A stretch of 64,000 nt of DNA, taken from the NCBI RefSeq assembly GCF_008831285.2, contig NC_045139.1, positions 8,526,204 to 8,590,203 on the forward strand, given 5' to 3'. The stretch is from Nymphaea colorata (Eukaryota; Streptophyta; Magnoliopsida; Nymphaeales; Nymphaeaceae). Position numbers and translations under genes: made by a program. The first letter of the stretch is position 1, and each line of letters opens with the position of its first letter. This document shows, in pieces, positions 1 to 44,277 of the stretch. Below the pieces are notes generated by a model. That model had not been told where the DNA came from. It did no database searches and saw only the letters and a list, made by a program, of their open reading frames with translations.

Positions 1-3000
1 TTGGCATTTCTTCCTCTCAAAGAAACCTTGCTCCTTATGCATACTCATCATCTCCAAAATGGAACTGCTGAACCTCTAACCTTTGCTTCAGTGCGACCTT
101 CCAACTACCCCTTTCTGTTAACCAGGAAGGCCTTCACCTTCTTCAACAATTTATGAAATGCCATACTTAACAACCAAAGCCCCAGGAAACATGAATTATT
201 CATTGCATGTTAATTTTAAGTACTCACAGCAACAGCATGTTGGCAAACTGAAGAGTAAATTATGAGATTAACTATTGTTTATGTGATTAACAATTTGACA
301 TGACACAACTATCCAGTGTATGCACAATGCTCACTGGCGATTTCTTTTAGTAATCGATTTTGTAAGTATGTCATCATTAAGCAGCCTCCCAGTCTAACGA
401 ATCACCCAAATAATTATCTTTAGCATCAGTCCTCACATGCCCTCCATATTATTGAAAGAAGCCATTTCCTGCTAGGAAAATGGTGAATTGTGTATAGGAT
501 GACCAAGACTTTCAGCCCAACCTTGAACATGAAAGCAGAACAAAAATATTGATGAGGTACTTTGATTCTTCTCAGTGAAATAACCAATTACCAGCATGAA
601 TTTCTGGTGGGTTCAGTTCAAGATGCTGGGTAAAACTAACAAAATCTCACAGCAAGAAAAAATCAAAGTAACAAAATGTTTAGGAAAAAGAAAAGGCTGC
701 AGATAAAGTAAGCTGAACATGCACTAAATTTATGCAACTGTAGCAGAATCATATCTATTAACCATAAAATTGCTAATGCAAATGCTAAGTTGTCAACATC
801 AACAGCTAATATGATAACAAGATACAAAAAAAATATGCTCATAAACGATACTGACTAGCAAGAATAAATTTCTAGCTCACTCTTCCTGTTTTTCGTTGTC
901 TGGGGGTAGAACGTGTTTGTGCGGTCCTTAACTGGATGCTAGAATTAGCAAGACTCAACATTTCCATTTTACTAAGATTATTAATAACCTGATGAATATT
1001 CAGGTTTTCTAGATGCCCTAACTTCTGGTGAGGCACAACATTTACCATGCCAATTGTACCACCCGTTACAATTCAGGATACCAATATGTACATTTATGGA
1101 ACACCCATGCAGAGAGTGTTTTCTATCTGACAGTCAACTACCTATGGAGAAGCTCCCTAATCCTCCCTCTACCAAGCAAATAAGTCATCAAATAAGAACA
1201 GCCAAAACAAATGAAAAGATGCTTTTCAGACTTTTTGCATAAATAATGATATTTAATGACTAAGAGACATATTAATTGTGTGGGTCCCACTATTGCCTAA
1301 AATAACCAACCTCAGAAACTAATCTGCAGTCAAGTAAGTCATTTTCCCCAATAACATTTTTTTGAAAAGGTTTTTAAATTTAAAATATGAACAAATGGGC
1401 AAGACCCACGAATGACTACATTGTTTTTACCCACGAATGACTACATTGTTTTTACCACATGTCACGTGACTTCATAAAGGCCTTTTAGAAGAAATCCAAT
1501 CAAGGTGATCAACTTGTTCCTCCAAAGTTGGGTTGTTTCTCATATTAACATTCTAGTGACCATTGTGCACCCAGTATCAGTAATACGCATGTTCTGCTTA
1601 CATACGGCACACTAATAAAGAGGAAAAGCAGTCCTTGGTTTAGTAACTTGGAAGGTGACATTTTTAATTTCAGTAAAGGTTCTCTCAAAATCTACAAGAG
1701 AACCCATCCAATCAAACCTAGCAAAACTCCAAATGTGTCAAAACCGAATATTCCCAATTTCACTACAAGTTCTTCCAATAGCTACAGGAGATCCTATCCA
1801 TGCTTTCCATGGATCTCAAGATCTAGTTAGTAACACATCTGATTGAATAATTGGACCATGATGATCTTCAGTATTGTGATAACCACCACATAAAGAGAAA
1901 AGTTCAGTTATGAATTTTATCACATGCAACCTAAGTTTTCCTTTAAAAAAAAGAGGTAGCCAGATGGACGTTACTATCAGATTTTCCATAACTCTTTTTT
2001 TTTTTTTAAGGACTTCCTCAATCTTATTACTACCTGTTTTCAGAACTGACAGAGGAAGATCAAGCGTCAGAGTTGTACCAAGAAGAAAATATTTTTGTGC
2101 GGACGTACATGCAGGAAGAGGCATCCTGAAGCAAAGATTTTCAAGCTTCACAATAACTTTATTCTATGCTTAGTCCAATCGGCTTCTTTAAGAGTATATT
2201 ACAAGATGCCATGTCTAGACACTGACATTCAAATATCACAGATGTCACTCACCTCGTTCCATATCACCCAAGTCCAGCCTGATCAGTCACCAACGAAACC
2301 AAGGAAAGAGGTATGCCAACAAGGTATTTGTTATGTGATTTGATCACTTAAGATGAAAATCTCATAAAATACTCTTCAATAAGTGTCATCTAAATAGCGA
2401 TATAAGCAAGATCCAGTTTTAATCTACAAATACTGTAGACACTTTCGTTCTGGATGCCTAAAACATTCGTCTCATAGAGATACCCATGAACATGAAAGAT
2501 AACCAATTGCTACCAACTGGATCTAACATCATGATGAAACTAATGGAACTTAACAAATTTCACCAACAAATTTCACCAACAAATTTCACCACCCTGTGAG
2601 CATCCAAAAAGTTACATTTAACAACTTAATATGAGTATCAACAGGATGCTTACTCATAAAGGATAAACAGGTCAGTAAAATTTTGCTTAAATAGATGACA
2701 ATGGGAGCTCTAGAACTAGCAAGCATTCAGTAATATAAAAAAATGCAGCATCAAACTAATGAAGCAAAATAAAATGGCCTTGAGATGATATAGTAAACCC
2801 TCAAGCCAATGAGATGGCTTAAAGAACAAACTTATGTCGAAAAAGTCCCAAAACAGGTGCTGCGCCTCACTATTGAGTAAGTAAAACAGCAACTGCTGAG
2901 CAACAAAATCACACCATGAAAACTGAAACTAAAAGCTGATTGGGCATATTTATACAACCGACGATTTACATGCGCTGAAACAATCATAAGATGCTTTAAA

Positions 3001-3371
3001 CCCCAAACTTTCCAAGTTCACATATCATAGAATGATTCAAATTGTGTATTCAGCAGAATGTTTCTCTAATCAAATGAAAAGAAATACTGTAGGAAGTATA
3101 AGTGGCACATCCAGGAAAAATTATTTTAGGGAAGCATCCCAGATAATCTTTGACAAAAAGGAAATTGAAAAAACAATCCTACAAATACCGCTCCAAAAAT
3201 TGTCAAGCTGTCAATTAATTTACTCGAACATGCTAAAACAGCATAACAGAAGATAACTTTTGCAGCCGAACACCACAATGTTAGGGCGATTCGCGCAATA
3301 AAAAAAATGCATCCCTCTTGTACAAAGAGATCAAAACCCCCCATATTTCCATTGTCAGGAGACACACCAAC
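1..3371. other. Intergenic or UTR/intron DNA, no gene recognised
   Basis: AT-rich sequence in which I see no protein family on either strand. It contains short tandem duplications: a 25-bp unit beginning ACCCACGAATGACTAC repeated twice near 1405-1455, and AAATTTCACCAAC repeated about three times near 2556-2590. The part next to 3372 is probably the 3' UTR of the minus-strand gene that ends there. Confidence 0.5.
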
Positions 3372-21579: not shown

Positions 21580-24500
21580 TCACCGACGATTGCGACGACC
21601 ACCCTGCGAGGGCAATCTCAGAGTGGGGAATTTCAGAGGCAAAGACAGAATGACACAAGATTTTCTAAATCCACATCCCAATTCCATATAATATGGTTTG
21701 AGACTTGCCGGTGTCATCTTCAAATCTTTGGCAATATCAGATGGGTCACTATCAAATTCATCCACGAACAGAGTGAGAACCAGGATATAACTAATGAGTA
21801 GCTGAGATTTCTCTCTGGACAGCATACTTTTCTGTGCATCAGCAAACATCTTCATGAACTTTATAAGGATGATCCCTGGTATCGTGGATGATTCTTTATA
21901 CTTCTCAGTGTTGGCTGTCACCAACTTATCAATAGAATGACTAGGTATACTCATAAACTTTAAAAGGCAAGTAATGTACGAGAGTATGCCAGCAAGCTTT
22001 TCCCGTTTTTCCAGGTCCTGATAAAAAGAAAAGGCAAAGAATTATTTTCACTTAGTACTTATGCATAAGAAATAAAAAAACTCATACAAATTATATTTTA
22101 TGTTCTGGCCTTTTCTTTCTAATTCCTGAAATAGGGAAAACAAAAGCAAAGAGAATTTTTTTTTTCGCTTGGCACTTGTGGGTATAAACTCAACAAAAAC
22201 TCCAACATTCTGCACCTGTACAAATTATATTCTATGCTCTCTGTCCATTATCTTCAACAGAAATGTGACGGGAAAAGACCGATTGAACATTAGCTACACA
22301 TAAATAAAAAAGGGAAAATAAAAAAATTAAGCCTTAAAAATGGTGGACACTAGTAGCCAGTTCAGTCGACCACTGCAATGGTTCAGGGCAGTTAAGATGG
22401 CAATGATGACGGGAAAATTGATAAAATCAGAACAGAGGAGCAAGCTAGGTGGAAACCCTGGATCAAATCAAACCCTTGTCACCATGAGTTTGGACACTGA
22501 ACTCTTCCATGATATTGTCCTACTAAGGCATGTAGTCAATGTTACCCAGGTTTTACCTCGCAAAGAGCAAACCCATTAAGCAGTCCAATCTTTGAAGGAT
22601 TTATCAAAAAGTTAAAAGAAAAATAAATGTGCCGATGACACAAAGATGCAGGGAGTCGGAAGGGGTCAGTGGTAGAATGCTAAGGCCAAAGCTACAGGAG
22701 ATTAGAAATAGACAAATAGTCAAATATGAGCCAACCAGCTAATGAGAAACTCATAATAGAGGCACCCCTCCATCCACCCAACACAATTTGCAGCGCTATC
22801 TAGATCTATGTTGTTAAGGTAAGGCCTTGCGTAGGCCTCACTTAGTCATGGACTAAGCGTAACTCCACGCCCGTCACCTAAGTCCACCACTTAGGCCACC
22901 GGATATGTGTAAGTGCGTAGCTAGCGCCAACACACTTAGTCCATGGGAAAGTGAAAAGTCACATTTCCTTTCAATTAAGTCTCTTAATTGGGTATGTACT
23001 ATTATTTTTAGCCTCCGCTAACTTGGGAACCCCTTACAACGCAACCTCAACCCACACACGCACACTCAGCCCTAAGCCGAGATTAGGGTTCTCCTTCACA
23101 GAGGGCCACACACTCGATACTTGTGATAAAACCACAACAAAGGTCCTTCGACCTTATTTATAAGCACTGCTGTATTAGTTCATGGGGGATTTGATCCAAT
23201 GCTATACCCAGTGCTTAACAATACTCCCACCTTGAAAAATACATTGCCCTCAAGGTGTAAAGGAAAAGACTGCTGACTGATAAGAGCCTTCCAGTGAAAC
23301 AAGAACGCATTCCAGGCCTCTGTGTTTGCATTGAAAACCAATCACCTCACTTGGTGCATTTCTTTGTAAGCTCCTGCAGTAACCCCACAGCGCCCCACAG
23401 AACTGTAAAATCTCTGTTTCCCTTAAAGTGATTGTAGGCCCATCTGCCCAACAGATTAGGGCCTGCCGCCATGGGCGTTGATTTAGATCTCTTGATTGCT
23501 TCCCCTTCCTCTTTCCCTGGTGAGTAACCCCACCCTGCTTCATTGGCCACCTGTTTTTGGCGGGTGAAGGATGGTGACAACCTTATAAACAATGCATTGG
23601 CTGCAAATGCAAGGTGTGAACTATAAATCCCGTCTGAGTCAAATTCCAGTTCCCATGCCTTCAATAGAATAAAAAGACAGCAAACTGTAACAAAACCAGC
23701 ACTATCTTGGCAATCCATACCAGGAAAAGGTGGATCTTGAGCAAGGATACAAATCAAGTAAGCAAGAACATATTCAGGATATATGTCATTGTTACTCCAT
23801 CTGAGCCATTTCAAGACGCTTGATGATTCCGAACCTCTAGATGATAGTCTTCCATAAATTCAGTGAGGTCACAATTTTCTTGAAGATCGTCATGGCAAAC
23901 ACAAGCAGCCACTGCAAAAGCACAAGCATATTTTTCGAGTAAGGAGCATGACCTTAGGAACTTGATTATTTTGTTAATAAAACGATGCTGAACCAAATCT
24001 GAATAATCCCCACGCCCTTTGAATCACTACATGGAATAGTTGGGGTGAAACTTGAGCATCCCATTTTTTAGCCAGCTGAAGAACAGATACAGCTGCAGCT
24101 AACCTGAGATGAGCTTTGTTGTTCTCACTTGAATTAATGCCATCCGAAATTTTTCCCACCAGCATAAGCCTTAATAAAATACCAACTAGTAGCCCAAGCT
24201 TTGCCCTGAACAAGTTCCTTCTAATGGCAAAAATCTCGACAAGTGCCTGCCAACATATCCCTTCAATTTACAGTTGTAGGTACATGATAATCCCTCATCC
24301 AAGTGGCCAGGCCTATCTAAATTGGACATTCGGAAAATGGTTTGTATGATATGCTGTGTGATTTCTTCATCACAAGTTTCATACATTGAAACACGAGGTT
24401 GTGCAAGTGTGCCCAATGGTTGTAAAACAGTTGGTGCATTCATCCTAGCAAAAAGAAAGTCCACAAGTTTCTCAAACAGATCTGACAAAGCTGGTTCACG

Positions 24501-27500
24501 TGATGCATCTGTTAATGCAACAATCGCTGGAAGATAACACTCGCTCGTGAACAGGTTCCCTCCCAACACAGCTGCTCCAAGAATGGAAACATCAAAGGAA
24601 ACGCAAGTGATATATGGCTGCCTGCTCTGGCCAAAATCTGCAGGCGCTTGTCTTCAAAAGGGCAAATTTCTTCCATCAACAGCTTAACAAAGCTCTCTTA
24701 AGAGCCTTTTTAGAATTGAAGGACAGATGTTGGCCACTGTCCACAAGAGATCTATGGCAGAAGCCACAAGTGCCTTGTTTTCTTGAGCCTTGTTGGAAAG
24801 ATGGTTCAAAATGATAAAGTTGACATGCTCCGCTTTGAATAAGGTGTTTGAGCATTAGCACTGAGTATCCTCAAGAGATCATATTGTGGATGCCGATTTC
24901 CTATCCTCTTTAGCAGATCATCTCGGATGTTTGAGCAGCTTTGATATCCTTTTCCTCAGCTAGAGGGCATGGCAATGTCTTGAAAATGTTGTTATCCTTC
25001 ATTCCATGCAGGTTTTGAAAATTCTCTTCCGCTTTCACAGGGTCAACAAGGGAGGTTGACATTTTCCTGAAACAAGCCAAAACCGCTTTGTGCATTGCAT
25101 CAGAATGTCCATCCTTTCCTTTCTGCCTAAGAGCCCACCATCCTTGCATCTTTGTGACCTCAATTTCTGAGACAAGATAGATTCTAGTGCCTTTATATGT
25201 AGTGAGTTTAAGGAAGAGAAGAAAGATATCCAATGTCTGACTCTTTCTGCGACTGGAAGAGAAGAAAGATATCCAATGTCTGACTCTTTCCGCAACTGTA
25301 AGTGAAGCAAGAAATGAATTTTCAGCAAGTAAAAGTTCCATATTTTAAGGCTTAAAATCCTTGCTGTCCTTGGCATAACCAAGTCTTATTATGTTCAGAA
25401 TTTGTTAAAAATTATCAACTGGTGTGATCTCCCCTTCAAAGCACCTATTGCAGTAATTCATATACAATTCCAGCAGCCTCTGCATCATATTTTTCCAGAC
25501 TGAAAACTTTTTATCACAAAGCCTTTCTGCGGCATGCAATACTAACTCAGAGGGGATGCAACTTGAATGACGTTGTGCCAAATCACAATTTATATTCACA
25601 ACTTGAAGTCTTGAACCTTGTTCATGTCCTTCACCCAAAGGGGTTTCCGTTGCTGCATTGCACACCTTCCCTTCTAGTATAAGGCCATAGCCAAAGCAAC
25701 CTGGTGCTCTATCGGTAACTCATCTTTTGAAGGATCAGAGGAGCTGATCACTCTTATGCTTACACGAAGATGCCACAGAAACATCAGAAAACTTATGTGT
25801 ACCTTGCCTTTTGAAAACTGGTGTGAGAAGAATGGTGTATTCCTGGGGTGACTAAACAAACATGTGTCATGCCCCCATAGCTTAAGTGGTGTTCACCCAT
25901 GTCCACTGTTGCTCTCTTCAACATGAATCTACATGAATGAGCATCAAGGATTTCATCACCACCCTGTAAGAATGGGCCAATGCCTTTTTCATCAATATCA
26001 ACAGTAAATTTCTAGCCATTCTCTTGTAGGTCCTCTTCACTTCCTGTAATCTCTGGCATCACAACCTTCTCACAAGGGAAACTATCATCGCTACCACAGA
26101 ATTCGAGCTGATGGAAGGCCGACGCTAAATTTGCTGCTTGGTTTGCAGTACTGTCCCTATATGGCAACTTTGGAATGTTCCCAGTTCTGTCCTCCCTAGT
26201 ATCTCGTATCTACTTTGTTCAGCAACTGTTCCAGCAAACCTCTAAAGACCTTTTGTTGGGTCATTATCGTCTTCAAGCTATGTCACACGGGTACTCCTCT
26301 AAAGACCTTTTGTTGGGTCATTCTCCATTGCAGTATCGGGTACAGTCAACGTACCTAGGATCATTTTTGTCCATTTTCAGACTCGGTCAACTTTGACCAA
26401 GTCCAAAGTTGTCCAATTTTAAGTTGAAAATTAAAAATCCTCTCCCTTTTCTTGTTTCCTTTTTCACTCTAAACTTTTCTTGTACATAGTTCCTCACAAC
26501 TTTTCATTTAAAATCTTCCATACAATGTTTCGAAAATTCATTCCTTCTCTATAACTTGACTCTTCGATAATAGCGCGAGCCATAACCATAGCGATGTCAA
26601 TATATCTTAAAAGCGTGACATGTTGCTCCTTCTAATATTGATGATGCGATGGAGAATCAAGAAAGTTGATATATTTGTATGTTAATTACATTCATCCTGT
26701 GTTCTGGATCATGATTTATGAATATGTTATCCATTTTGAAATTTTTTGACATATATATATATATCCGCGTGTGTGTCCGGCCGTACCCCCGCACCTAAAT
26801 TTTTTGAAAATGGTCCATACCCGTACCCGCACCTGCACCCGTACCTATGTGACATAGTCTCCAAGCCCCTGTCCTTGGATTCTTAGGACCGTTCGATCTT
26901 CCCAAGGCTCTTTTCCATCATTTTCAGGCGATGGTTCATCATTTGGTGTTCTTCATCCGATTGCTTGCGACAGGATTCAAGAGCTGCAAAATCCTCACAA
27001 GTAGACATAGTGAAGAGGTGGTCTGTCTCGGTGAGAAAGACAACTGTCTCTGATACCATTGTTAGCCTCCGCTAACTTGGGAACCCCTTACAAGGCAACC
27101 CCAACCCCACCCGCACACACTCAGCCCTAATCCCAGATTAGGGTACACACTCAATACTTGTGATAAAACCTCAACTGAAGGTCCTTCAACCATATTTATA
27201 AGCACTACTGGATCAGTCCCATGGGGGATCCAATCCAATCTATGTCACATGGACACTTCATAAGTTCATTTTGCTAATGCACCAGCGTCGACGCAACGCA
27301 GGTGCAACCCAAATTCGCACCCAACCGCAGTCAAGGAAAGTCAGGTGCAGTCAGCTGCATCAACCATTTTTGTCATTTTTTGATGTGCACCTGACTCAAC
27401 GGGAGTCGGGTGTGGTCAAACCGCGTCATGGACTTTTTTGTCTATTTTTTTATTTTTTATTTCTTTAAAAATGACTTAGGACACAATCGTGTCCCTTCCC

Positions 27501-27796
27501 ATGGCAAAGCTTCTTCTTCCCACAATAGCCCTTCCCATCTTCTCCCTCTTGCATTGAGGCACCCCTCGGTGACCGACACCTCTGTTTAACATTTCCTCTT
27601 TAACCACGGCATGAGTCTCGACTGTGTATAATGGGGAATGGGTGGCCAGTGAGTAGAAGGGCTGAGGGGCTGGGGAGGAAGAAGGTTGATGCTCACGGCA
27701 TTCATTGTCGCTTAGTCTCTCAAGTATTACAGATTACAGTATTACTTTATTAGTATTTTGATATTTTTGCTTTCATAGACAATTTTTGTCATATGT

Positions 27797-27840
<44 letters not shown>

Positions 27841-30800
27841 ACAAATAACGTCTTAGAGTTTTAAACGGTGAGATTTTTCTCAGGTATAACACGGCAAGCT
27901 TGAAAAAACGGAAAAAAAAAAGAAAAATATGGTAAATTTTTAAAAATTAAAAATTGAAAAAAAATAAAATAAGTGAGAAACTAATAACACAAACATCAAA
28001 AGATAAATAGACCTGCAACAAATAAAAAATACAAAATGAAAAAAAAATGTTTGGCATTAAAAAAAACTGAAAAAAAATAAAAAAAAATGTTTTTTTCATT
28101 TTAATGTTTTTTTGAAAAACAAATTTTTTGTAAGTTTTAAACAGCCATTTAATTTATCATACTTTTTTGCATTTTTTTCAAAAAAAATATGTTTTCTATG
28201 ACTATGATATATATTATAATAATAAATTAACAATAATAATAATTACCCTCGCAGCACCACCGCACCCAAATGATTTGAGATATGTCGTCCGGCATCCCAC
28301 ACCTATGTGACATAGAATCCAATCCTATACCTGGTGCCTAACAATTATGTACTTTATTTTGTATTGATTACGTATTTTTATGGATTGTTATGTTGATGAT
28401 GTTGTATATATGTACATATTGTTAGCCACTTAGTTTGTTTTATAGTATTGTGATACCTCATACCTCTTATATGTATACATTAGTATGATTATGTTACGTA
28501 CTTATATCATACAATTATATGAATTCTTAATTTGTTATACCTATTATAAACTTATATTTATATACTATTATGTTAAATTGTATTGTAATGTATTTTTTTA
28601 TTCATGTTATATGTATTGTAATATGTGTTGTATGTATATACTATCATGTACAATCTATTATACCTGTTATATAGTATTGCATCAACCTATTATATGTATA
28701 TATTATTAGCCTGTTATATTATACGTAGTATTGTGACACCTGTTATCTGTATACATTAGTATGGTTATGTGCATTGTTAAGGTTGTGTACTTGTATTTAT
28801 ATACTATTATGTACTGATAGTATATTTCATTATACTATGTCTTTCTTTAAATACAGATTGATTAAAGCCTTCCTGCAGATTTACATTCCTTCATTAAGAG
28901 ATTAGATTTAGTTATATATATATATATATATATATATTAGATTACATTTAATAAGTAACGGTCTTCTATTGATTTGCATATTCAATGAAGTCAACAATTA
29001 CTTTTTTATTGTTTAAGTTGGTTATGTTTGTTATATTACTACTCTCCACAATTCAAATATTAGTAATAGTTAATCAAAATAACTTGACATATTAACATAA
29101 CTAGAAAAAATAAAAAGAAAAAAAGAATTGGTCGCCTTTTTTGCCTTAACAACATACATCTAGATTCAGCATAAATAAGGAGCTGAGATGATAAACATGT
29201 GTAATCAGACAAAGGCGAAAAAATACCATAATCTGCATGACTTTATGAACCCTGTTACAGACAAAAATAGGATATCCATTTCTGCCGAGAATTTCAGAAG
29301 CAGAACCACCATCTTCAGCCTCCAGCAGCTCTAAAATGTCATAAAGATGTTCCCACTCTGTTTCCAGAATAATCTTGTCCAATGGATAAACATTTTCTAC
29401 TGACACGGCAGTAAGATCATAAGGTGGAATATTTCGTTCGATGGACGTGTTTGTATCATGCAAAACTTCTTGTCGTGTCTTTACATTTCCTTGAACATTA
29501 GCATCCTTAATTAAGTTCTCAGCTGCCTCTTTTAAATCAAGATTTTCTTCTTTTAGGCGCCTTGACTCCCGCCTGGTGACCTGTGGTAGTCAACAAAAGG
29601 TGTAGAAATTCACTTAATTTGGCTCCAAAAGAATAAAACACGTTAAACATGCAGCTAATGGCAAGATAGAGCATTCCAAGGAACTAGAATGCAAAATATA
29701 TGGATGCTGTTAAACGTTTCAGTTTCAATTATCAAACGCCAAAATCTGAGCTAATGTCAGAAACGGGTACGCCTCATAGTCACACATGTCTAGGTGCTAC
29801 AACAGATCCTATTATGTAGTTATGTGGTAGCTTGAATATACAGAAACGAGAGTGTCTCACAGGCACACAGATATAATAGCCCATTTTAGCAATTCTCAAA
29901 TCCTATCACCTAGTGACATGGTAGCGTGCGCGCACACACACACACACACAAAAAGAGGAAAATTAAGGCAAGATAACTGAAAATGGAGGGAAAAGACTAT
30001 GTACAAACCTGACTCTTTGATCGCTTTGTTCCAAAAGAAGATGTAAGAGCTCTCAGTTTATCGAGCCTATTCTCATCAGTGAGCTTCTCTTCCTCTACAT
30101 CAACTGCCCCTGTGTGTACATACTGTAAACCCCTCACTCTCGGTTCCAACCTAAAGATCTGAAGAAGAATGCCATTAGAATCAAGTTCAACAGTGCGCAG
30201 AGCAGCAGTCTAACGAAGCAAACACCAGAGAGGCAGATAAATTGAAGAATTCGTATTAGGAAAGAAGAGGCATAGACCGCCGACCAGATAAAAATGTGAC
30301 AGAAATTCCATAACATGCAATTTACAAGCGGCGACAGATGTAAACAGCACCACAATCCGAAGAACTATCACATATAACAGATGGTACAAAAGGAATACAT
30401 TTGTTGCAAAAACCAAATTCCCATTCCTGAGAATCCCCAAGAAATGAAACAGATGATACATCCGTTTTTCGAATATATAAACAAATCAAGAAGTTTCGCT
30501 CTTAAAAAAACAAAAAGCACCTTGTTTCCGGCGATGGGGAGGATCTTAAGGGAACCGTTGTTCTTGTCGAGAACGCCGAGGGCGTAAGTGCAGGGCTGGA
30601 ATAGGGCACCTTCACCGGAGTAGTTGGTGCCTACGAAATCAACGCCGGCATTGTCGTCGTTGATCACCAGCTGCAGACGTCCCTTCTTGAACTTGTCGGT
30701 GTTCCTGAAGGCCCTGACTCTCACCCCGTCATTCCCCTCGGACGAGGAACCGATGTCGAAGCCGGAAGGGAAGTAACCGACGAAGGGGGCGACAAGACCC

Positions 30801-30898
30801 TCCGCCTCAGGGACGACGTCCACCTTCACTTCCACGGTCTCCCGCTTCTTCCCCCTCCGGCTACTGCCCACGATGCCGCTGCTCCCCTGCGGCTCCAT
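21580..30898 (-). CDS. RPA49: DNA-directed RNA polymerase I subunit RPA49 (A49)
   Basis: Four exons on the minus strand: 30521-30898, 30009-30158, 29227-29580 and 21580-22017, all with GT-AG introns in phase 0, giving 439 aa. The N-terminal part (VAPFVGYFPSGFD, VDFVGTNYSGEGA, CTYALGVLDK) is the A49 dimerisation domain that pairs with A34.5. The C-terminal part (YPLDKIILETEW, LAGILSYITCLLKF, LLISYILVLTLFVDEF, MTPASLKPYYMELGC) is the tandem winged-helix region. In the family the protein supports Pol I initiation and elongation on rDNA in the nucleolus. The start at 30898 is chosen because MEPQGSS precedes a basic segment and conserved sequence; the frame stays open upstream. Introns 1 and 2 are short, but intron 3 is 7.2 kb because an LTR retrotransposon (23006-28343) sits in it in the same orientation. 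The exons themselves are undamaged, so the gene is likely functional if this intron is spliced. Confidence 0.92.
22800..22945. repeat. Relic of a small transposon (AAGGC...CTTAG words) in RPA49 intron 3
   Basis: A stretch with TTGTTAAGGTAAGGCCTTGC, CACTTAGTCATGGACTAAGC and CACTTAGTCCATGG resembles common plant MITE interiors built from CTTAG/CTAAG repeats. The ends are not clear. Confidence 0.3.
23006..23220 (-). repeat. 3' LTR of the PDS5-carrying retrotransposon
   Basis: 215 bp. It aligns along its whole length with the 5' LTR, sharing GCCTCCGCTAACTTGGGAAC, ACTTGTGATAAAACC, TTTATAAGCACT and CATGGGGGAT. It has an extra ~15 bp in the middle (around 23089-23104). Immediately inside lies the candidate polypurine tract AAGGTGGGAG (minus strand, 23224-23233). 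Confidence 0.9.
23580..25670 (-). pseudogene. Captured PDS5-like (sister chromatid cohesion) cDNA, broken
   Basis: In order along the minus strand, several frames read plant PDS5 HEAT-repeat sequence: IPSELVLHAAERLCDKKFSV, NRCFEGEIT, VAERVRHWISFFSS, VKAEENFQNLHGMKDNNIF, RIGNRHPQYDLLRIL, ILARAGSHISL, APTVLQPLGTLAQP, SCTYNCKLKGY, ENNKAHLRLAAAVSVLQLA, KYACAFAVAACVC, LTEFMEDYHLE, and YPEYVLAYLICILAQDPPFP. The segments follow one another over about 2.1 kb without introns, although plant PDS5 genes are intron-rich, so this is a cDNA copy of the middle of the protein. Frameshifts, stops and a ~43-bp tandem duplication (25215-25300) destroy the frame. PDS5 normally regulates cohesin in the nucleus; this copy cannot make that protein. 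Both boundaries with retroelement sequence are approximate. Confidence 0.85.
25671..26277 (-). other. Retroelement interior of unknown origin, upstream of the PDS5 part
   Basis: On the minus strand a partly open frame reads KLPYRDSTANQAANLASAF, EITGSEEDLQENG, DIDEKGIGPFLQGGDEILDA and HHLSYGGMTHVCLVTPG. I do not recognise a gag, protease or host family here. It could be a second captured segment, a PDS5 part upstream of the conserved HEAT region, or a degraded gag/pol part. Confidence 0.35.
26278..26857. mobile_element. hAT-like non-autonomous element 1 (CTATGTCACA ends), nested in the LTR element
   Basis: 580 bp with terminal inverted repeats: CTATGTCACACGGGTAC at the left and the complement of CTATGTCACATAGGTAC at the right. 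It is flanked by 8-bp direct repeats TCTTCAAG (26270-26277) and TCTCCAAG (26858-26865), which differ at one base. An 8-bp target duplication points to the hAT superfamily. The right end carries CCCGCACC/CCCGTACC words. No transposase frame is present. A 27-bp host-flank sequence is duplicated just inside the left end. Confidence 0.8.
27044..27058 (-). promoter_or_regulatory. Retrotransposon primer-binding site (tRNA-iMet type)
   Basis: On the minus strand TGGTATCAGAGACAG begins one base after the 5' LTR end (TAACA). TGGTATCAGAGC is the usual plant primer-binding sequence complementary to initiator tRNA-Met, and the first 11 bases match it. Confidence 0.85.
27060..28343 (-). repeat. 5' LTR of the PDS5-carrying retrotransposon, split by a hAT-like element
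   Basis: The LTR parts are 27060-27239 and 28324-28343, which together give about 200 bp with perfect TGTTA...TAACA ends. Removing the insertion and one copy of its AATCCAAT target duplication restores a sequence collinear with the 3' LTR at 23190-23220. Confidence 0.9.
27240..28315. mobile_element. hAT-like non-autonomous element 2 (CTATGTCACA ends), nested in the 5' LTR
   Basis: 1,076 bp. It begins CTATGTCACATGG and ends with the complement of CTATGTCACATAGG, and is flanked by perfect 8-bp direct repeats AATCCAAT (27232-27239 and 28316-28323). Its ends match element 1 at 26278-26857, and both right ends carry CCGCACC/CACACCTATG words, so they are one family. The interior has A-rich tracts and an (AT)n run at about 27801-27837. 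No transposase was recognised. Confidence 0.85.
28349..29226. other. AT-rich remainder of RPA49 intron 3
   Basis: Very AT-rich sequence made largely of TATAT, TATTATGT and TTGTATTG words, with an (AT)n run at about 28913-28937. No gene or transposon end was recognised. The splice donor of intron 3 (ATG|GTATTT on the minus strand) is at 29226. Confidence 0.6.
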
Positions 30899-31050
30899 AT
30901 TCTCTTCCTCCCTTTCTCCCCTCGACAGGAAAATCGAGCGGCTCTCTTCAGTACCACTCTTCCACCCTTCGACCTCCCCACGTATCGCGCGGTAGCAAGA
31001 AGAGAGAAACACAGCCAGAGAGAGAGCGCGCGCGCAACAATAGGCGGTGA

Positions 31051-31060
31051 GTTTAGGGTT
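31051..31060 (-). promoter_or_regulatory. Telo-box upstream of RPA49
   Basis: AACCCTAAAC on the minus strand, about 155 bp before the start codon. The telo-box (AAACCCTAA) is a known element of plant promoters for ribosomal-protein and ribosome-biogenesis genes. It fits the role of a Pol I subunit. Confidence 0.55.
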
Positions 31061-31129
31061 AGTGAGCAGGTCGAAAATGCATGGTATAGTTGGAAATGGG
31101 ATTGAGACGGATTCAATACTGTCATTATT

Positions 31130-33700
31130 TGACTCTGCGAGCCAGCTAGTTCCTAGTTAAGTTATAAATTTTTTGTAAATTTATGAAGAAAGTAAGTCTG
31201 TTGCAAGTTCATGTTCTGATTATTTCATCAACTAAAAATGAACAACATTTCATATGAATATTTATTTATATTGAATATAGTTTGTGTTATTTCATAATTC
31301 AAAAATTAAAAAATTTCTATAGCAACACAGTTTTTTAAAAAAAATGCAATTATTTGACGATCCTAACTACTCGACAGACCTTAACTTATTATCTTGTAAA
31401 TGGATGATCCAAACCGATTAGGGTGGCTTGCAATTCCGATCAGCTACACAAGAACTAAAAATGGAACTACTTGAATCGGGTAAAAGTTTTGTCTCTTGTT
31501 GATTGATGAAAGTACGACCCGATATGTGTTATATATGGATTTAAGTTTAGATTTATTAAGTGGATTCTCTTTCAAACCTATGTCTGTTGTTGGATCCATG
31601 TCTTTTGTTGTTTGTCAATTTCCAACAATGCAAATAATATTTAGGTGTGGGCCTATTTAGTCGCTGAGAATCTAATGAAAGAAAAAATAAACTCAACTCT
31701 AAGGGGGTTGAAGTTCTAAAAGTTATCTCCTACGCAGTCATATAAATTGTTTCATCACGTATAAGACAGGTCTGCGGTTAGATGCTTAAAAAGAATAATG
31801 GATTATTGAAGAAAAAATAATTTGGAATTTCCTTTTGGTAGCGTTTGGATATCTGGAACTAATAAATACTCAGACTTAAAACGGCTGGGTATTTAGTACA
31901 GGGCATTTTAGTGGAATTTTTGTTCTGCCTTCGATTTACTTCATTTATTTAATTTTCATGGAACTTTGGCTCCGGATGTTGAGAGGTTAACATGCAGAAA
32001 TTTTTTTCCAGCGTTAAAGTTACACATGTTAGTACTAACGTTTTATTATGGCTCCAAAACTTCTAACACTAAAGCCGAACTTGGCACCAAATTTGCAGTA
32101 AAAACTTTCCTTGAACTAATGTTTCATCTCTACATTAAAGTTTCAGGTTTTCAAATGAGCCCTTTGTGACAAATAGCTCAATTAGACATGTCTTTCATAT
32201 AATAGACAAGCATGGGCGTCGAGTCGACCTGACACCCGAAACTCGAGTTACCATTAAAACCTGAGTCCTAATCCAATTAAATTAAAAAATATATTTTTTA
32301 AATTAAAATAATATATAAATATAATTAACTGTAATAAAATATTATATATATTCTGAGCTTATCAAGCCTAACAGGCCACTCGAAGCCCTTTTCTCAAGCT
32401 CGATAGCCCATCCGTAGATGACGTCATTAAATAGTTTTCAAAATTTTGCAAGAAACTACATACATATAAAAAAATTGTTGAAATCCAACGAACCCCTAAT
32501 CAGATGAAGCTAAGTCAACCCGGAAATTTTTTTGTTTAGAATATTTTGCCGAATCTATTTTAATATTAAGCTTTATTTGAGTTTGGACGGTTAAATTTAA
32601 TTTGGGAAAACAAGAACAAGCTAAAAAGGCTCTCAAGTCCCCCCCGTTCTAAACCAGCCAAGAGCTCCTCCCGAGTTTGAAAACTCTCAAGTCCACCGTT
32701 CCAACCCGGAGCGCTCTTGTACCTCGAGCCATCTTCTTTCACTTGCACTGTGGATCTCAGTAAGCCGCCGTGAACCCAGGAGAGCAGCTGAACGACCATG
32801 GCAACCACCACCAAGAGAGGAGAGAAAGAGAGAGAGGAAGTGGCTGTGGAAGGTTTAAAGAGAAAAGAAATGGAAGTCTTTCGACTGCAATAAGAAAGAG
32901 AATAGAGAGAGAAAGAAATCTTCGACGATGATAAAGGGTCTCAGGGAGGAAGGGAAAGGTTCAGGCTTCTTTTAGAATGTGTCAAACAGAGGTAAAAAAA
33001 AACCCTGAATAGTAAAACCTCAAAAATCACCTTTGACAATACCAAAGACTACTGACTTATCATTAATCAACAGACCTATATGACAACTCTCCTCCAATCC
33101 ACATGATCGGCGAGAAGAAAATTCACATTTAAGACGAAAGGGGTCAAGCATGTAAATGAGATGAAACCCACATGCATGAAAATTGGAGAGAGAGCAATCA
33201 AACGAAGCAACGTAGAGCTTTAAATTCAACTTGGAGATGCTCACTTTTTCAGAAACAACCTATCCCTCACCCGTATTTGACAAGACTGCAACCTTCGTAC
33301 GCCAAAAAGCAGAACTCTTAATAGTGCAAACATCAACAATTTATTTGCCAGACTTTGGAAAACCATTTTCATGCGCTCCTATCAACGAAGTATGGGAGAT
33401 ATCACAATCCCAGCAATTCGGACAAGTATTTCCACCACAACAGCAACAGTGCCACAATCTAATATTTTATACCGAGGCAAACCGACACATATCCGAGAAA
33501 TTATCTCCATAAATCCTTGCGATAAAATTATCCTTTGAAGTTCGAAACCTTAGTTCAAGAACCAAAATAATGAAAAGCACGAGACAAAATTGTAACTTCA
33601 ACGTAAAACCTACAGTAATTGGAAGGCACACAGCAAGAACAAAGTAGACTCGTCCCTCTAGATTGCTCCCAGCAAAAACAAAGTTGAGAGCTCCAGCTTT
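31130..33700. other. Intergenic between RPA49 and RPL13A
   Basis: No gene family recognised. It includes A+T-rich tracts (32280-32350), purine-rich runs (GAGAGAGA, 32817-32960) and the probable 3' UTR of RPL13A close to 33700. Scattered phrases such as GTTTGGATATCTGG near 31850 suggest small transposon debris. Confidence 0.45.
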
Positions 33701-33715
33701 TCTCGATCAAGCAAA

Positions 33716-35522
33716 TCAATATTTGATAGGCGCAAGCACCTCAAGCTGGGAACCAAGCTGCTCGTCTGCAGCTTTCTCTGCCTTCGTTCTCAGTTTGGTC
33801 AACTGCTTCCGCCTCTCATACATCACTTGGGATCTTGCCTTCCTCTTAGCCTCCAATTCCTAAAGAACGTAAGGGAAACAAATGTCAAACGTACCACTCA
33901 GCGATTCCAAAATGAAAAAAGAAAGGTTCGTCCACACTCGACTGAAACAGAGCAATCGAAACATATAGCTTGTTTTGAAATAAAAACTATTTCATTAACA
34001 ATTAAGTAAAGAAAACGACTGTACTTGCTAAAGTGATATGTAATCTATACAAGTAAAGTTACTTAGACGTCAATTATGCCCCAACAAGTCAAAATCAAAT
34101 TTCACAACATGTAACAAATCATCACAATTCCAATAGAAAATTTTAGTTTACAGTTCTCCACGCTTCAACAGGTTTCTTGGTCCTTCATATACATACATAT
34201 TATTACATCGTTGCAACAACACCCTTCCAAATAACAAAACCTTCCCCCACCCCGACATCGCATGGGCGTACCACATCCAAAAAAGAAACAAGGGAATATA
34301 AAAATGGATGTCACATAAGAGGAAGGTTAAATACGAAAATCGAATTAGTATTAGAATATATCAAAAGAAATTTCCTATACATTTATTTTCTAACCTAACT
34401 CTAAAGCGTAAAGAAGAAAACACAATCCAGGCCTTGAACCTACACGTCGAGTGGAACTGAGTACACATGTAAAGGTGGTCATTAAAGGAAGAAGAGAAAA
34501 TACGATTAATTTAAAGAAGAAGGAACATTTCCAAAAATTCCAGAGCACACAAAAAACCGTCATATACAAATGCACAATCATTACCAATACGCCATACAAA
34601 GAATCACTTCAAATAAAATGAATAAGCATCTCCCAAATGCAGTCACCTAAGGATTTCGCCCCGAAGTTGCATTTGACAAATGACCGCAAAAAGAATTTTT
34701 CAAACACGCCAACGACCAGAAGCCATAAAGAAAGAGCAGAGAAGTGAAACTTGCCTTGATGGTATCATACTGACTCCACCCAACCTCTGACGACAGACGA
34801 CCAAGGAGGCAGTACCTGTGCCCAGTCTGAAGCCTCAAGACCCTACGTTCCCAAACACATCATTCGAATGAATGTGAAAACAAAATCCGGGTTACTACAA
34901 ACTCACAGATATACCAAATCACCAAAAAATGAGCAAAAACTAAAATGAGAAAAATGGAGGAAACAAAACTTACTTGAGAGCATCAGGTATGACCATCCTC
35001 TTCTTCTTGTCGTACGGAGGAGGGATCCCCTCGTACGCCTTCAAACGTGCGAGGGCAGCCGCGCCACGCTTGGTCTTATGAGGAATCATTCTGAATCAGA
35101 ACGACCAACAAAAACGACGAAACGAATCAGGACACGAAACAAAGATGCCACGAATCAGAAACAACAAGTCAAATGCCGGAAAAACGAAACGACAAATAAC
35201 GAAAATAGAAGCCGAAAGCGAAAAATGGAGGAAGAAATTAAAGGGAGTACCCGCGGATGGTGCGCCAGAGGATCTTGGCGGGGGCGCGGAAGTGGATGGG
35301 CCCGTGGGAGGGCTTGGTGTTCATCCGCTTGCGGAGGAAGCGGAGGTACTTCATCTTCTGGCGGACGAGGCCGCCGGAGAGGCAGATCTCCTCGCACCTC
35401 ACCACGACGATCCTCTGGCCGTTGAGGAGCTCCTTCGCCAGGATCGAAGCCAGCCTCCCCAGCATGTGGTGCCTGGCGTCCACCACCACCACCCGCGCGC
35501 ACACTCCCGAGCCCGAAACCAT
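33716..35522 (-). CDS. RPL13A: 60S ribosomal protein L13a (uL13)
   Basis: Four exons on the minus strand: 35251-35522, 34974-35090, 34755-34842 and 33716-33859. They give 206 aa, the usual plant length, ending IAPIKY-like (VLAPIKY). Conserved uL13 segments include [30 protein letters not shown]-type sequence ([16 protein letters not shown]), [10 protein letters not shown] and [13 protein letters not shown]. The protein sits on the large subunit on 25S rRNA. Introns 1 and 2 are GT-AG, in phases 2 and 2. Intron 3 starts AAG|GCAAGT, a GC donor, and ends TTTAG; only this junction keeps the conserved YDTIK-ELEAKRK reading. The start ATG at 35522 precedes [16 protein letters not shown] box fused to a telo-box lies about 110 bp upstream. 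All coding exons look intact. Confidence 0.96.
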
Positions 35523-35630
35523 CTTCTTCCTCCTCCTTCCTTCGCCGCCGCTTCGGCACGCTCTGTGTCTGGCTTCCGCCCTCTCTTCCCCTCTGGTAGA
35601 GATTTGATGAGGGTTTGCGCCTGTCAAAGA

Positions 35631-35642
35631 GCTAGGGTTTTA
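35631..35642 (-). promoter_or_regulatory. TATA box overlapping a telo-box, RPL13A promoter
   Basis: TATAAAACCCTA on the minus strand, about 110 bp before the ATG. It combines TATAAAA with the telo-box AAACCCTA typical of plant ribosomal-protein promoters. A second AAACCCTC follows at about 35608-35616. Confidence 0.65.
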
Positions 35643-39175: not shown

Positions 39176-42100
39176 TCAGATGGAAACACTGTTGGGAACT
39201 CCTCTACCAGTCACACCAGGGCCTGATGTAGGTAGTAGTAGCTCATAAGGAGGAATTCCAGCTCCAGTTCTGTTCTTAAGACGTGTATCTTTGTTCCGTC
39301 TGTGGATGATCTCTTCTATCTCCTCGATCCTTGCTGAGAATCTGTCAAATGCCAACTGGATCTTTTGCTCGTTAGTAAAATGGGCGTGATAGGGTTGCAC
39401 TTGACCCAAATACTCTTCGTCTGGAGAATGTGTTGATAATGTGTCCTTGACAGCCATGATTTTTGTAGCTTGAACCTGAGTTGGTAGTGATGCAAGCAAT
39501 GTTGCTTGAGGGTCCAGAAGCAAATCTTCAAACTCCGGCTGATCCTCTCTTGGCATTAGTTTTCTCATAAGTGTGGGACGATTCGGCATGTATCCTCCAT
39601 ATGGGTACTGGCCAAAATTCACGGCTGCATGCTGCCCAGACGCCACCCAGATCATTGTGGTGAGGACTCCACACAAGTCCTCTTTGGTGTTCAGTTGAGG
39701 CCACCATGGCTCATTCCTCTTATCAGGATGGCCTTTGTTCTTTATCTCATCCCACCAACATTGAAGCTCCGTATCAGACTTAACGCTGCCTGGTTCTGAA
39801 TAGAAGTGTGAAACATAGTCTTCAACCCAATCTTTAATGGCTGACCATATAAGAAGTCCATCTGCAGCATATGGATAGTCCTCAATAACAAGCTTCACAC
39901 CAAGGGCGCTTGAAGGATCCTCCACAGCCATGCCCCTGAAATTTCTAATGGATTAGAAAGATGGAAGAAAGCACATTCTGAAATAACTTAGATACTTACA
40001 GGGTTTTTTCAAAAGGAATTAAGCAGAAAAAGTCCCTTCATGCTCATGTGTAACAGTTCCAGTCTCTCAAAGTTCTATTATTTTTTTGAGTAGAAACTTA
40101 GCTTCTTGAACTCTTTAAGCTTTTAATAGCTAATGGTTGGGAAAACTGCAACTCGTCCATGAACAAGCCCGAAGGATTCTAAGGCTTAACTGCAATGTCC
40201 TACAGTCAACTACTATGTATGACATTCACATAAAACACTAACGTAAATGACGATCGTTATGTAGATCAGTCATAAGCCGTTCATAATTCCAAAAAGCACA
40301 AACCGTAAACTGAGTTTGCATGACTTCAGATAAGTGTGTTGATTGGTTGGATGATTTCATGCACATAAATTGCAATTACTGTTTAACATAAAACACACAG
40401 ACATACAAAACAAATGCTCACAGAAAAAGAAAGATTGGATTAATGGAAGTTATAACATTGAAACTTTCTTTCACGCCATGTAAGTAACAAATAGAAGGAA
40501 AGAAAAAATATGGAGGCTTCAGCAGTCTAACCTATCAATAAGACTCTTAAAGAATCTCACCTTCGTATTAAATCTGCAGGTAATCCCTCCATGTCAAATC
40601 GCCACAAGGCCTTATAGGCAGCTGAGCTCAGCTCCATAGCATATTTTCCTGGACTGAAACATTCTTCAATAATTCCACCTCCATTTATCAAACTCTGTCG
40701 AGCCAAAGCATTGATTTCTAAAGTATACCGCATGTGAGGATGCAGCAATTTGTAGATGGGATGCATTGAGCTCAGCTGTCTGTTAGTTGCAATAATATAA
40801 GGTTCCATGCATGCATGGGTCCTCAACCTGAAACAGTAGACTAGCATTAAGCTACATGGATCTTCACCAGGACAATTTCATGCTGATGCCTTCAATCACG
40901 AACTAAATATGCTGTTCAGGTAACCCAGTGCAGGACCGCTGGCAGAAGCAGGAAAATGGATCGGCAGTTGTTCAATTACTTAAAAGGCACATCTACTTAC
41001 CAGTGATTTACTAATTGGTGGACACCAGCATCATTTGAGCAGACATGAGCTTTGGCCATTTTCCAGGTCCAGTGGCTTGTTGCGTCGTGACCGGGGGTAT
41101 AGACATGTTTGTTCCTTGGCATGGATGAGGTAGGGGGAAGGCTGAGTTCGATAGCAATTGGTTTCAGTGTACCACTCTCGGTTATGAAAAGGACAGTCCG
41201 TGATGCATAAGCTTTTCTTCCTTCCAAAGAATTCATTCTTTTCATGTAAGGCAAGAGTATATCATGGTAGTCGAGTATAAAGAGTCTCCTCTCCTCAATT
41301 GCCTGAATCACCAATCAGGATGATAAGAAAGTTAACAAAGAAATAATGCAGAAAACCATATGCATTGACATACATCTTCCAACTTTCAAGGTATTTCTAG
41401 AAATACTATTGCTGCAACAGAAATTTATTAGAGGATTATATGGGTTTATTTTTTAGAAAGATCAAGGTGATTACATTTAACAAGTTTCTGCGTTGATGTA
41501 TTTATACTCTTAAGAGCATAAAATTGATCTTCTTTTACTTCAACGTTTCCTATAAAAAAATTGGGAAGAAACGAACTTTTTTAACCTAAGACATAGAACA
41601 AAATTAATAAAACTGCACTTTCCACCATTTGTTCAGTTAATGCCTAAAAAATGCAATTTCCCCCTTAGCACCGATTTAATGGCTTGCTCTGAACTTGGCG
41701 GTGGGGTTGAAGCTGGGACCATGCAGGGGAAATCGAAAAGTGCTTCCATGGTCTGGATGTTCCAATTTTCATTTCCCTGCAACTCCCAGCTCAGAAACAG
41801 ATCTGAATGTTCAGAGAACTTAACCTCTGTCTAAGATATTATATATATTCATATTGATGTCTACATGAAGCCAATCCCGTAGAAACAACAAGTATGAAAC
41901 GAAAAGATCAACTGTAGTACCTGTTCAACAGTTAGTCCATGTAATTCTCGTTCAAGTAACTCCTCAGTAATCGCTGACTGAGGAGAACCATACGTTGTTG
42001 GGTCTAATTTGCTGAGAATTGGAATCTCCTGCGAAAACATTTGAACCACAAGGATCTAGATGAGACAAAAGGCTCCGTTGTGAACATAATATCACTAAAA

Positions 42101-44277
42101 AAAGAGGAATAACAAATCCACATTAAACACCTTCAGTCTTTCAATATTCACAGGATTTACACCAGCCAATGTTTGACGAGCAAATTCATTATCACGCAGC
42201 CATGCAAATTTATCTCCTGAAAAATTCAGTAGGCATATGCTTAAACATGCACAGCCTGCAGACAATCTAAACGTAAAAGAAAGAGACTAGTCTTTCAAGA
42301 GTTGGAGTCCATGTCCTTACTGGAAATTACAGCAGGAGTCTTGTATTTCAGCAGCCGCTTGCTAGCATTAGCAGCCCCCTTTAGAACCCTGGGAAGCAAT
42401 AAGCTCTCAAAAATTCCCTGGTCCTGGTCATGCTTTATAGTGATGCCTTCATTGTACAGCTTGTCAATGTCAGAGAAGCATGAAAACGGATTGTCGTGTC
42501 GAGAGAGTGCAGCAGCTATAGATGGCACCAAAGTGTGCAGGACAGCTTTGAGCCGCCCAGCAGAGAAACTGCCCTGTTTTATCTCCTCAAAATTTTCATC
42601 TCGGGGAACATACACTGGATGAGGCTTCTCAACCCTACTCTCTGACAAAGGATCTGCCATGACACCAGATGAGAAAAGAATCTCAACTTATGATGAAAAT
42701 GGTATGCATGTATTCCTGCTCTTGCATCATAAGATAAAGCTGCAAGTAATGCCAACTGAACTTGCAGAGAAGGCTTCATGCCCAGTTGTCAGTTTTAATA
42801 AACCGTGTCCATGGCTATTTCTTGAATGAAGCATCAGCATCGATTTTATCCAAATCATAATTAACAAACAAAGAATGCTTCCAAGGAACTTGACAATACC
42901 AAGTAGAAGAAAAACTACAGGATCAAAGGAGAGATCAAACATTATACCTGACTTTGTGGGAGGCCGACCGGTGCGGCATCGTCTGGGATAGGGTCTCTCC
43001 TTCCCACCCAGAACTGGCCTAAGAAGTTCAATATCCTTGTCCGGGTTTCCCAAGTCATTGTAAGTAGCATAATCATATATCCTTTCGAATTGCTTACGCT
43101 CGCCCTGGCCATCCCCGCGGATGCTAACCAGCTCACTCTTTCTAAGTTCATTAAGACCACTGGGTGTTTGTGAAGGCAAGTATGCCTGATTGGAAGAACA
43201 AATAGAGGAATTCAAATCAGTGAACATGTTCAAAGAGCAGGAACACAAAGCGGTACGTCATTTCTCTTCTCAAAATGATATTTGATATGACACATGGTAC
43301 ATGAGTATTTCAAGATCACCTGAAAAGATTTGCTCTGATATTAAAAAAGAATCAGCTTTGTAACCAAACCATTCAACTTCAGCCGTTTTGCCAATTTGCA
43401 AGCAGAGTATATAAAGAAATCAAGAGGGATTTCAACTGTTACCTGATTAGAAAAGAAGACCCTTTTCTCTGGATTGTCATGCTGTGAGTGAACCCAAGAA
43501 TTTGCAGGGAAGAAAATGGAACCTTCATCAAATCCCTGGATCATGATCTCCACCAAGTAGAATTCCTTATCATGCAGATTGGTAACAATGACCGCCCCAG
43601 GGAGGCCAAAATCAGGATCAACATTGAATTCAGCTGTGTACTCCAGAATATTTGGGCGGTGTGAGTGCTTAGGCAACCAGCCCCTGACGGCTACCTCTGC
43701 GCTCTTCTTTGTTCCATTTGTTTCTGAGGAAAATACTAAAAGTTAAAAACAACTTCTGCTATAAGCTCTGAAAATGAAGTATGTGATCACTGCTGGTGTG
43801 CTGCCAGTTTCATGGCGTTAAGTCCCGATGCAGACGAAAGGAGCAAAATAAAACGAACCAAGATCATCAAACAGTGAACACCAACAATTGAAGCATTAAT
43901 TAGATTAGCTCACCCTGATCTACTTCATTGCTCACAAGCTGAAGAGTGATCCCCTGCCCGAATCCGTTACGAAACAGTTCCAACTGGTCCTCGATCATCT
44001 CTACAATCCCTTCCTTAATCTTCTTCCTGATAGACACCACCGCCTTCACATCCACCATCTTAGCTCCTGTCGACTCACTGTTAACTACTGTTACCTCTTG
44101 ATCTTTGCTGATGACTGCCCTGACCACCGACCTCCTCTTGGAGCTCAGTGGATGCTTCTGACTCATCGATCTCACCCTCATCACCCATCTGATTTCATGC
44201 TTGTCTGTGATCCAAGGAGAACTGAGTGGGCTACTTCTGATCCTTGGTTGATTGAGAACACTTTGAACAGTCGCCAT
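39176..44277 (-). CDS. 13S-lipoxygenase, plastid type 2 (linoleate 13-LOX, LOX2-like)
   Basis: Nine exons on the minus strand: 43914-44277, 43443-43723, 42948-43185, 42321-42653, 42131-42216, 41921-42028, 41001-41302, 40561-40827 and 39176-39935. All junctions keep phase and give 912 aa. The first ~70 residues are Ser/Arg-rich, like a plastid transit peptide. A PLAT/LH2 domain follows (about 90-220), then the catalytic domain. Non-haem iron ligands are visible: His565 and His570 (HQLVNHW), His762 and Asn766 ([21 protein letters not shown]) and the C-terminal Ile912 ([10 protein letters not shown]). An Ala in INALAR (611) marks S-stereospecificity. ECFSPGKY, with Cys-Phe where 9-LOX has Thr-Val, and [19 protein letters not shown] mark a type-2 13-LOX, which oxygenates linolenic/linoleic acid towards jasmonate and green-leaf volatiles. 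DAGVHQLV has Val where Tyr is common. An in-frame ATG at 44361 would add 28 residues, but it lies at the expected cap site. Confidence 0.95.

Follow-up and report, generated by a model that had tools for sequence, protein, structure and literature searches.

The window analyzed here, a stretch of 64,000 nucleotides (contig C2:8526204-8590203) of the 408-Mb Nymphaea colorata genome (G000), holds a dead copy of a non-autonomous long terminal repeat (LTR) retrotransposon family whose interior was repeatedly replaced by host messenger RNA (mRNA) sequence. The copy at positions 23006-28343 is a single minus-strand LTR retrotransposon, and its chimeric cargo joins two host cDNAs, one from the cohesin regulator PDS5 and the other from a class-II ketose-bisphosphate-aldolase-family gene (KBA). 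The original prediction, a non-autonomous LTR element that had captured PDS5 cDNA, is supported by the target-site duplication, the primer-binding site, the polypurine tract, the failure to find a reverse transcriptase (RT), and the clean state of all 14 exon junctions covered. PDS5 had also been predicted to lie in the element's own sense, and both indeed run on the minus strand. The extent first assigned to PDS5 (23580-25670) needed revision: PDS5 sequence is present, but its true span is 25607-23657, and the sequence from 23656 to approximately 23300 is the second host cDNA.

A perfect 5-bp duplication of ATTAT, read by eye at 23001-23005 and 28344-28348, frames the element. The 3' LTR (23006-23220, minus strand) shares about 80% identity with 27060-27243 and matches family LTRs elsewhere in the genome; its end at 23006 is mutated (TTTTAGCC, versus TGTTAGCC in the other LTR). 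The 5' LTR (27060-28343, minus strand) is unusually long only because a 1,076-bp insert (27240-28315) sits inside it. The primer-binding site TGGTATCAGAGA (27047-27058, minus strand), which we take to be complementary to initiator tRNA-Met, lies one base from the 5' LTR, and the polypurine tract (23221-23234, minus strand; CAAGGTGGGAGTAT in element sense) lies beside the 3' LTR, the position typical of LTR elements. With one target duplication framing both LTRs, and the primer site and polypurine tract in place, the possibility raised earlier that the flanking LTRs are two separate solo insertions fails. A tblastn search with a 97-residue Ty3/gypsy RT fragment, the only query used, found no RT in the window interior (best E 2.4), where other pol remnants are possible, and the same single fragment gave E 0.51 or worse in the interiors of six relatives. 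No RT or integrase family appeared among the Pfam matches of the ten element open reading frames (ORFs) scanned. The window element accordingly classes as non-autonomous, with no RT of its own detected; residues near the polypurine tract look like the end of pol, a resemblance that would at most suggest a Ty3/gypsy (chromovirus-like) affinity.

The protein closest to the PDS5 part was N. colorata PDS5 homolog B (P0001; E 9.4e-222), and alignment to the intact gene, as originally proposed, identified the donor as a 31-exon gene on C1 (16,003,044-16,027,111) whose translation is exactly P0001. The minus-strand cargo (23657-25607) is 86% identical to donor coding sequence (CDS) 1085-3011 over 1,975 aligned columns; it runs from inside exon 7 to the 24th nucleotide of exon 21, ending at CDS 3011 of 4,329, where the junction to KBA lies. 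None of the 14 covered exon junctions carries an insertion, while the corresponding donor stretch spans 13.2 kb. Pfam family PF20168 was matched in order by six successive pieces among the ten ORFs scanned (profile positions 338 to 981), two of the six passing the Pfam cut-off and four falling below it, and the donor-gene match places the identity as PDS5 beyond doubt. Two PDS5 pieces searched against the PDB returned no PDS5, and the pentatricopeptide matches obtained look like repeat artefacts. The copy is decayed, with a Kimura two-parameter (K2P) distance of 0.114 to the donor, 11 frameshifting indels, four in-frame stops, and a 43-bp tandem duplication at 25212-25297 (minus strand). Selection on the PDS5 cargo was considered and is not supported, given these stops and frameshifts and a ratio of nonsynonymous to synonymous substitution rates (dN/dS) of 0.73 for the window versus the C12 copy and 0.58-1.23 over ten pairs.

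The sequence after PDS5 (23300-23656, minus strand) is the 3' part of KBA, approximately amino acids (aa) 1142-1296 of N. colorata P0010. It matched aa 1142-1281 of P0010 by tblastn (E 4e-6) and a donor exon at 72% over 99 bp. Because a Pfam scan of this stretch gave no family, its identity rests on the P0010 match and on the relatives: longer collinear KBA pieces (within aa 293-1284) occur in three PDS5-free members (L035, L036, L048), and the KBA piece of one PDS5-free relative lies above the Pfam cut-off for fructose-bisphosphate aldolase class II (E 4.5e-6). Our genome searches scored the best candidates only, and the copy numbers given here are accordingly lower bounds. The KBA donor lies on C6, with at least 21 matches over 94 kb among the best 35 of 117 candidates. 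Further KBA copies are suggested by compact matches at C3:9.05, C9:19.36 and C7:10.48 Mb and by single matches on C4, C1, C2 and C3. On C3, C11 and C215, matches of approximately 30% suggest paralogues. Between the KBA pieces of L035 (4425-6806, minus strand; query positions 921-1371) lies a dispersed repeat of about 450 bp, found at more than 30 places with 79-90% identity, which is probably a solo LTR of another family.

PDS5 cDNA was found at four loci on four contigs, namely, the window, C12:13.25 Mb (CDS 1082-3011), C11:3.08 Mb (2338-3011), and C8:11.27 Mb (1886-2909); searching the genome with the whole PDS5 protein revealed no additional copy of the central part among the best 32 of 69 candidates. 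The PDS5/KBA join falls at the identical nucleotide (CDS 3011, with a shared GGC) in the window, C12, and C11 copies, and the C8 copy is deleted there. Because the join nucleotide is the same in three of the four loci and the fourth is deleted at that point, a single PDS5 capture followed by spread is the likeliest history, in which PDS5 appears to have entered an element that already carried KBA and to have displaced the 5' part of that element. Among 644 sites, 20 differences from the donor are common to the window and C12 copies and not C11, four are common to C12 and C11, and two to the window and C11. Beside the C12 copy (C12:13245658-13250369; L049, L032), a pair of 193-bp direct repeats that share 98% identity and are separated by 4.5 kb resembles the LTRs of a young element. 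This element would sit at the point where that PDS5 copy lacks its 5' half. Separately, PDS5 aa 200-276, roughly exon 5 alone, gave isolated matches of 78-92% at C10:4495417-4495644, C5:17685288-17685509, and C7:21704778-21704942; these pieces were perhaps spread by another element or are perhaps intron-flanked genomic pieces.

The genome-wide search for related LTRs recovered such relatives, and between their LTRs lay PDS5, KBA, phytochrome, and insulin-degrading enzyme sequences. The suggestion that a family had spread PDS5 fragments therefore holds for four loci but was too narrow, as the cargo is chimeric and the wider family carries other host cDNAs. The window LTR had at least 41 genome matches (best 40 of 53 candidates). 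We compared 17 loci besides the window (L032-L048), a non-random sample picked from the best LTR and PDS5-region matches. Seven of the 18 loci (the window, L033, and L035-L039) have an LTR pair with an interior, L032 and L048 retain the 3' LTR only, and no LTR was seen in L034. Recognized host cDNA is present in nine: PDS5 in the window, L032, L033, and L034, KBA without PDS5 in the three loci named above, phytochrome in L037, and insulin-degrading enzyme in L039. L035-L039 measure 3,715-4,244 bp and L033 2,307 bp; the window element, minus both of its inserts and one copy of each duplication, measures 3,666 bp. Target duplications, read by eye, are perfect in the window, L035, and L037, agree at four of five positions in L036 and L039, and are not clear in L033 or L038. 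Divergence between paired LTRs ranges from 0.087 to 0.163 (K2P) across the seven pairs.

In L037, the cargo matched a solved phytochrome protein (E 3.5e-37), and its donor is C7:7,556,095-7,557,522. A 231-bp GT-AG intron of this donor is exactly absent from L037, and approximately 450 bp of exon is missing between two copies of AACCCA, the two exon parts being joined at the shared AACCCA. A further phytochrome copy on C12 (88% over nearly the full query) has a family LTR 0.6 kb away, and shorter phytochrome matches at other places may represent either members of the family or further phytochrome genes. L039 carries aa 433-841 of a Victoria insulin-degrading enzyme in one stretch, against 11 separate matches over 44 kb in the donor on C6; the two introns checked in sequence are both absent. 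Four more long copies of this cDNA (82-87%) lie on C8 (two), C4, and C1, the C1 copy near a family LTR match. L037 and L039 share a 3' end sequence, here termed the X module. The 3' module of L039 has matches at 23 or more additional places; X as a multicopy host gene was rejected, because the one such locus read (L054) is itself a family member, with an insulin-degrading-enzyme remnant of about 60 bp.

Modules also appear to have moved between family members. In the KBA-tail tree, L033 clusters with the remaining PDS5 copies (0.974; short data of 189-494 sites), whereas the LTR tree places both of its LTRs with the L035 pair (0.997), and the gag regions of L033 and L035 are 78% alike. The conflict between these trees points to recombination between a PDS5 chimera and another branch of the family, with an exchange of modules among its members. 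The gag region of the window copy is the element-native repeat sequence at 25608-26277 (minus strand), parts of which match 33 other genome places and one block of which is common to L033, L035, and L055. A third host gene at this position was considered and found no support, given these matches and the block shared with the family's gag region. Likewise, a TPR-like ORF of L035 is not claimed, its matches lying only below the Pfam cut-offs.

We consider these patterns to be probably best explained by template switching in a helper-dependent family, with minus-strand synthesis jumping between the RNA of the element and host mRNA. The proteins of a helper would pack element RNA and host mRNA together; minus-strand synthesis would first copy U3 and the polypurine tract, continue into the older cargo at its 3' end, then switch to the host mRNA, and then switch back onto the element RNA in the gag region and continue to the primer site. 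The resulting chimeras would spread as units, exchanging modules via further switching. Two switches of this kind predict a cargo that is in sense, intronless, devoid of both mRNA ends, and located between the leader and a remnant of older cargo. What we observed in the window, L033, L037, and L039 is a newer cDNA, spliced and in sense, flanked by the leader and, on the 3' side, by an older module (KBA or X); the order of modules, the sense, and the splicing are read directly from the copies, and from them we infer the co-packaging, the two switches, and the helper.

Several points weigh against this explanation. No autonomous helper was found in a limited look, in which 701 bases beside one gag-like repeat held no pol and no genome-wide helper search was made, and co-packaging was not observed. 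The bases shared at the joins (GGC, AACCCA) may be due to chance. The window, C12, and C11 copies have a change relative to the donor in common at only nine of 644 sites, and K2P distances put the C11 copy (L033) nearer to the donor (0.104) than to its window counterpart (0.172), so that it either split off very early or represents a separate capture; the shared PDS5/KBA join makes the early split likelier. The insulin-degrading-enzyme part of L039 stops (at ~6322) at a donor exon end, with GAG before GT, as splicing into an element would give. Finally, nine of the 18 loci (L038, L040-L047) showed no recognized cargo in comparisons against the window, P0010, and the remaining loci, their surroundings not being fully scanned; most of the nine show a single LTR. 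For L038 and L043, the ORFs scanned gave no convincing family, and no cargo emerged among the best 120 of 232 matches of one search, whose list was filled with insulin-degrading enzymes.

The exon-end stop in L039 is what read-through transduction would produce. In such a process, LTRs in or beside a donor gene would give rise to a long transcript running through its exons into the second LTR, which would be spliced, packaged, and copied with no jump between RNAs. Cargo that is spliced and in sense fits this route as well, and the window copy, itself in sense within an intron of the RNA polymerase I subunit A49 gene, demonstrates that such placements occur. We nonetheless regard read-through as unlikely, because PDS5 begins within exon 7 and ends within exon 21, and the fusion of KBA (from C6) with PDS5 (from C1) in one element means that one join or more must have involved recombination. 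We noticed no family LTR in the neighborhood of the PDS5 donor, whose flanks were not systematically searched. The prior existence of a processed PDS5 pseudogene, around which an LTR element later formed or inserted, is highly improbable: retroposition of the long interspersed nuclear element (LINE) type could yield intronless PDS5, but the piece has neither the poly-A tract nor the mRNA 3' end of a LINE-type processed pseudogene, ends mid-exon, and is joined identically at its 3' end to KBA at three of the four loci, on different contigs, with KBA present there in PDS5-free relatives also and one target duplication framing the entire element. Capture at the DNA level in the manner of Pack-MULEs or Helitrons, followed by framing with LTRs, has scarcely any probability, for although other gene-carrying plant elements act on DNA and the exon-5-only PDS5 pieces might be such a case, introns are gone at every covered PDS5 junction and at the phytochrome and insulin-degrading-enzyme junctions checked.

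Beyond template switching as the mode of capture, the family may have acted as a standing trap for host mRNA, its middle being repeatedly exchanged for new spliced cDNAs and its mobility supplied by helper proteins, with the 3' remnant of the previous cargo recording the order and the modules being reshuffled, a broader proposal for and against which we see the balance as even. Acute transducing retroviruses replace part of their coding region with spliced host sequence, and the product needs a helper; were the proposal true, the family would be their plant counterpart acting over a long time. It differs from them in being a plant intracellular element with no sign of cargo selection.

Pickup of host genes by LTR elements has been argued largely from single cases. 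The parts of the literature compared describe maize Bs1 as an LTR element in which three host-gene pieces (H+-ATPase, xylan endohydrolase, and glucanase) replace pol (PMC13317346). The window element resembles Bs1 in carrying host-gene pieces, here with introns absent from the cargo, and in combining more than one gene within one element, the mark of Bs1-type transduction; the difference is that four unrelated host cDNAs are distributed across the members of one family, in which older cargo persists as a 3' remnant and signs of module exchange are seen. Veju and BARE-2 are described in the same source, as far as compared, as template-switch products, chimeras of co-packaged RNAs whose partners are other retrotransposon or unknown sequences (PMC13317346), whereas here the partner is spliced host mRNA. 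A survey of rice and sorghum reported host genes inside LTR elements that were then multiplied, with genome-wide counts of annotated genes within LTR pairs (PMC3726574); unlike in the parts of that survey compared, capture order and joins are followed here within one family. LTR-flanked retrocopies have also been reported in plants, according to the sections compared (PMC4838847). Searches of the open-licence literature brought up no title or abstract dealing with a retrotransposon that carries PDS5 or with a Nymphaea LTR family that captures genes. The kind of element is thus known from Bs1, and what is new is one family with serial, nested, recombining, multi-gene cDNA captures. The four unrelated captures lie among relatives in a single genome that also holds the donors, which permits a direct comparison of capture order, joins, and module exchange and a test of template switching against read-through. 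Such cDNA copies could also mislead water lily gene annotation.

In the window copy, a short gag-like leader ORF (26883-27053, minus strand) has a weak Pfam match to DUF7179 (E 0.0055, below the cut-off). Two inserts with inverted-repeat ends came later than the element, one in the leader region (26278-26857; seven of eight flanking 8-mer positions agree, and 88% identity over 541 bp to an insert in L054) and the other in the 5' LTR (27240-28315; a perfect 8-bp duplication, AATCCAAT, read by eye). Their inverted-repeat ends are similar (CTATGTCACA...), and both have 8-bp duplications. The two LTRs differ by a K2P distance of 0.153 over 197 sites with most of the insert removed, about 20 insert bases being left in the alignment, mostly opposite gaps. 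At plant substitution rates of 0.7-1.3e-8 per site per year, the age of the copy would be roughly 6-11 million years. The A49 gene whose intron holds the element spans 21580-31156 (minus strand), with Pfam PF06870 in three ORFs at 30368-31156 (below cut-off), 29146-29589, and 21580-22041. Elsewhere in the window, on the minus strand, lie an ORF of the Ribosomal protein L13 family (35238-35639) and pieces of a lipoxygenase gene (39176-43742; PLAT and Lipoxygenase domains).

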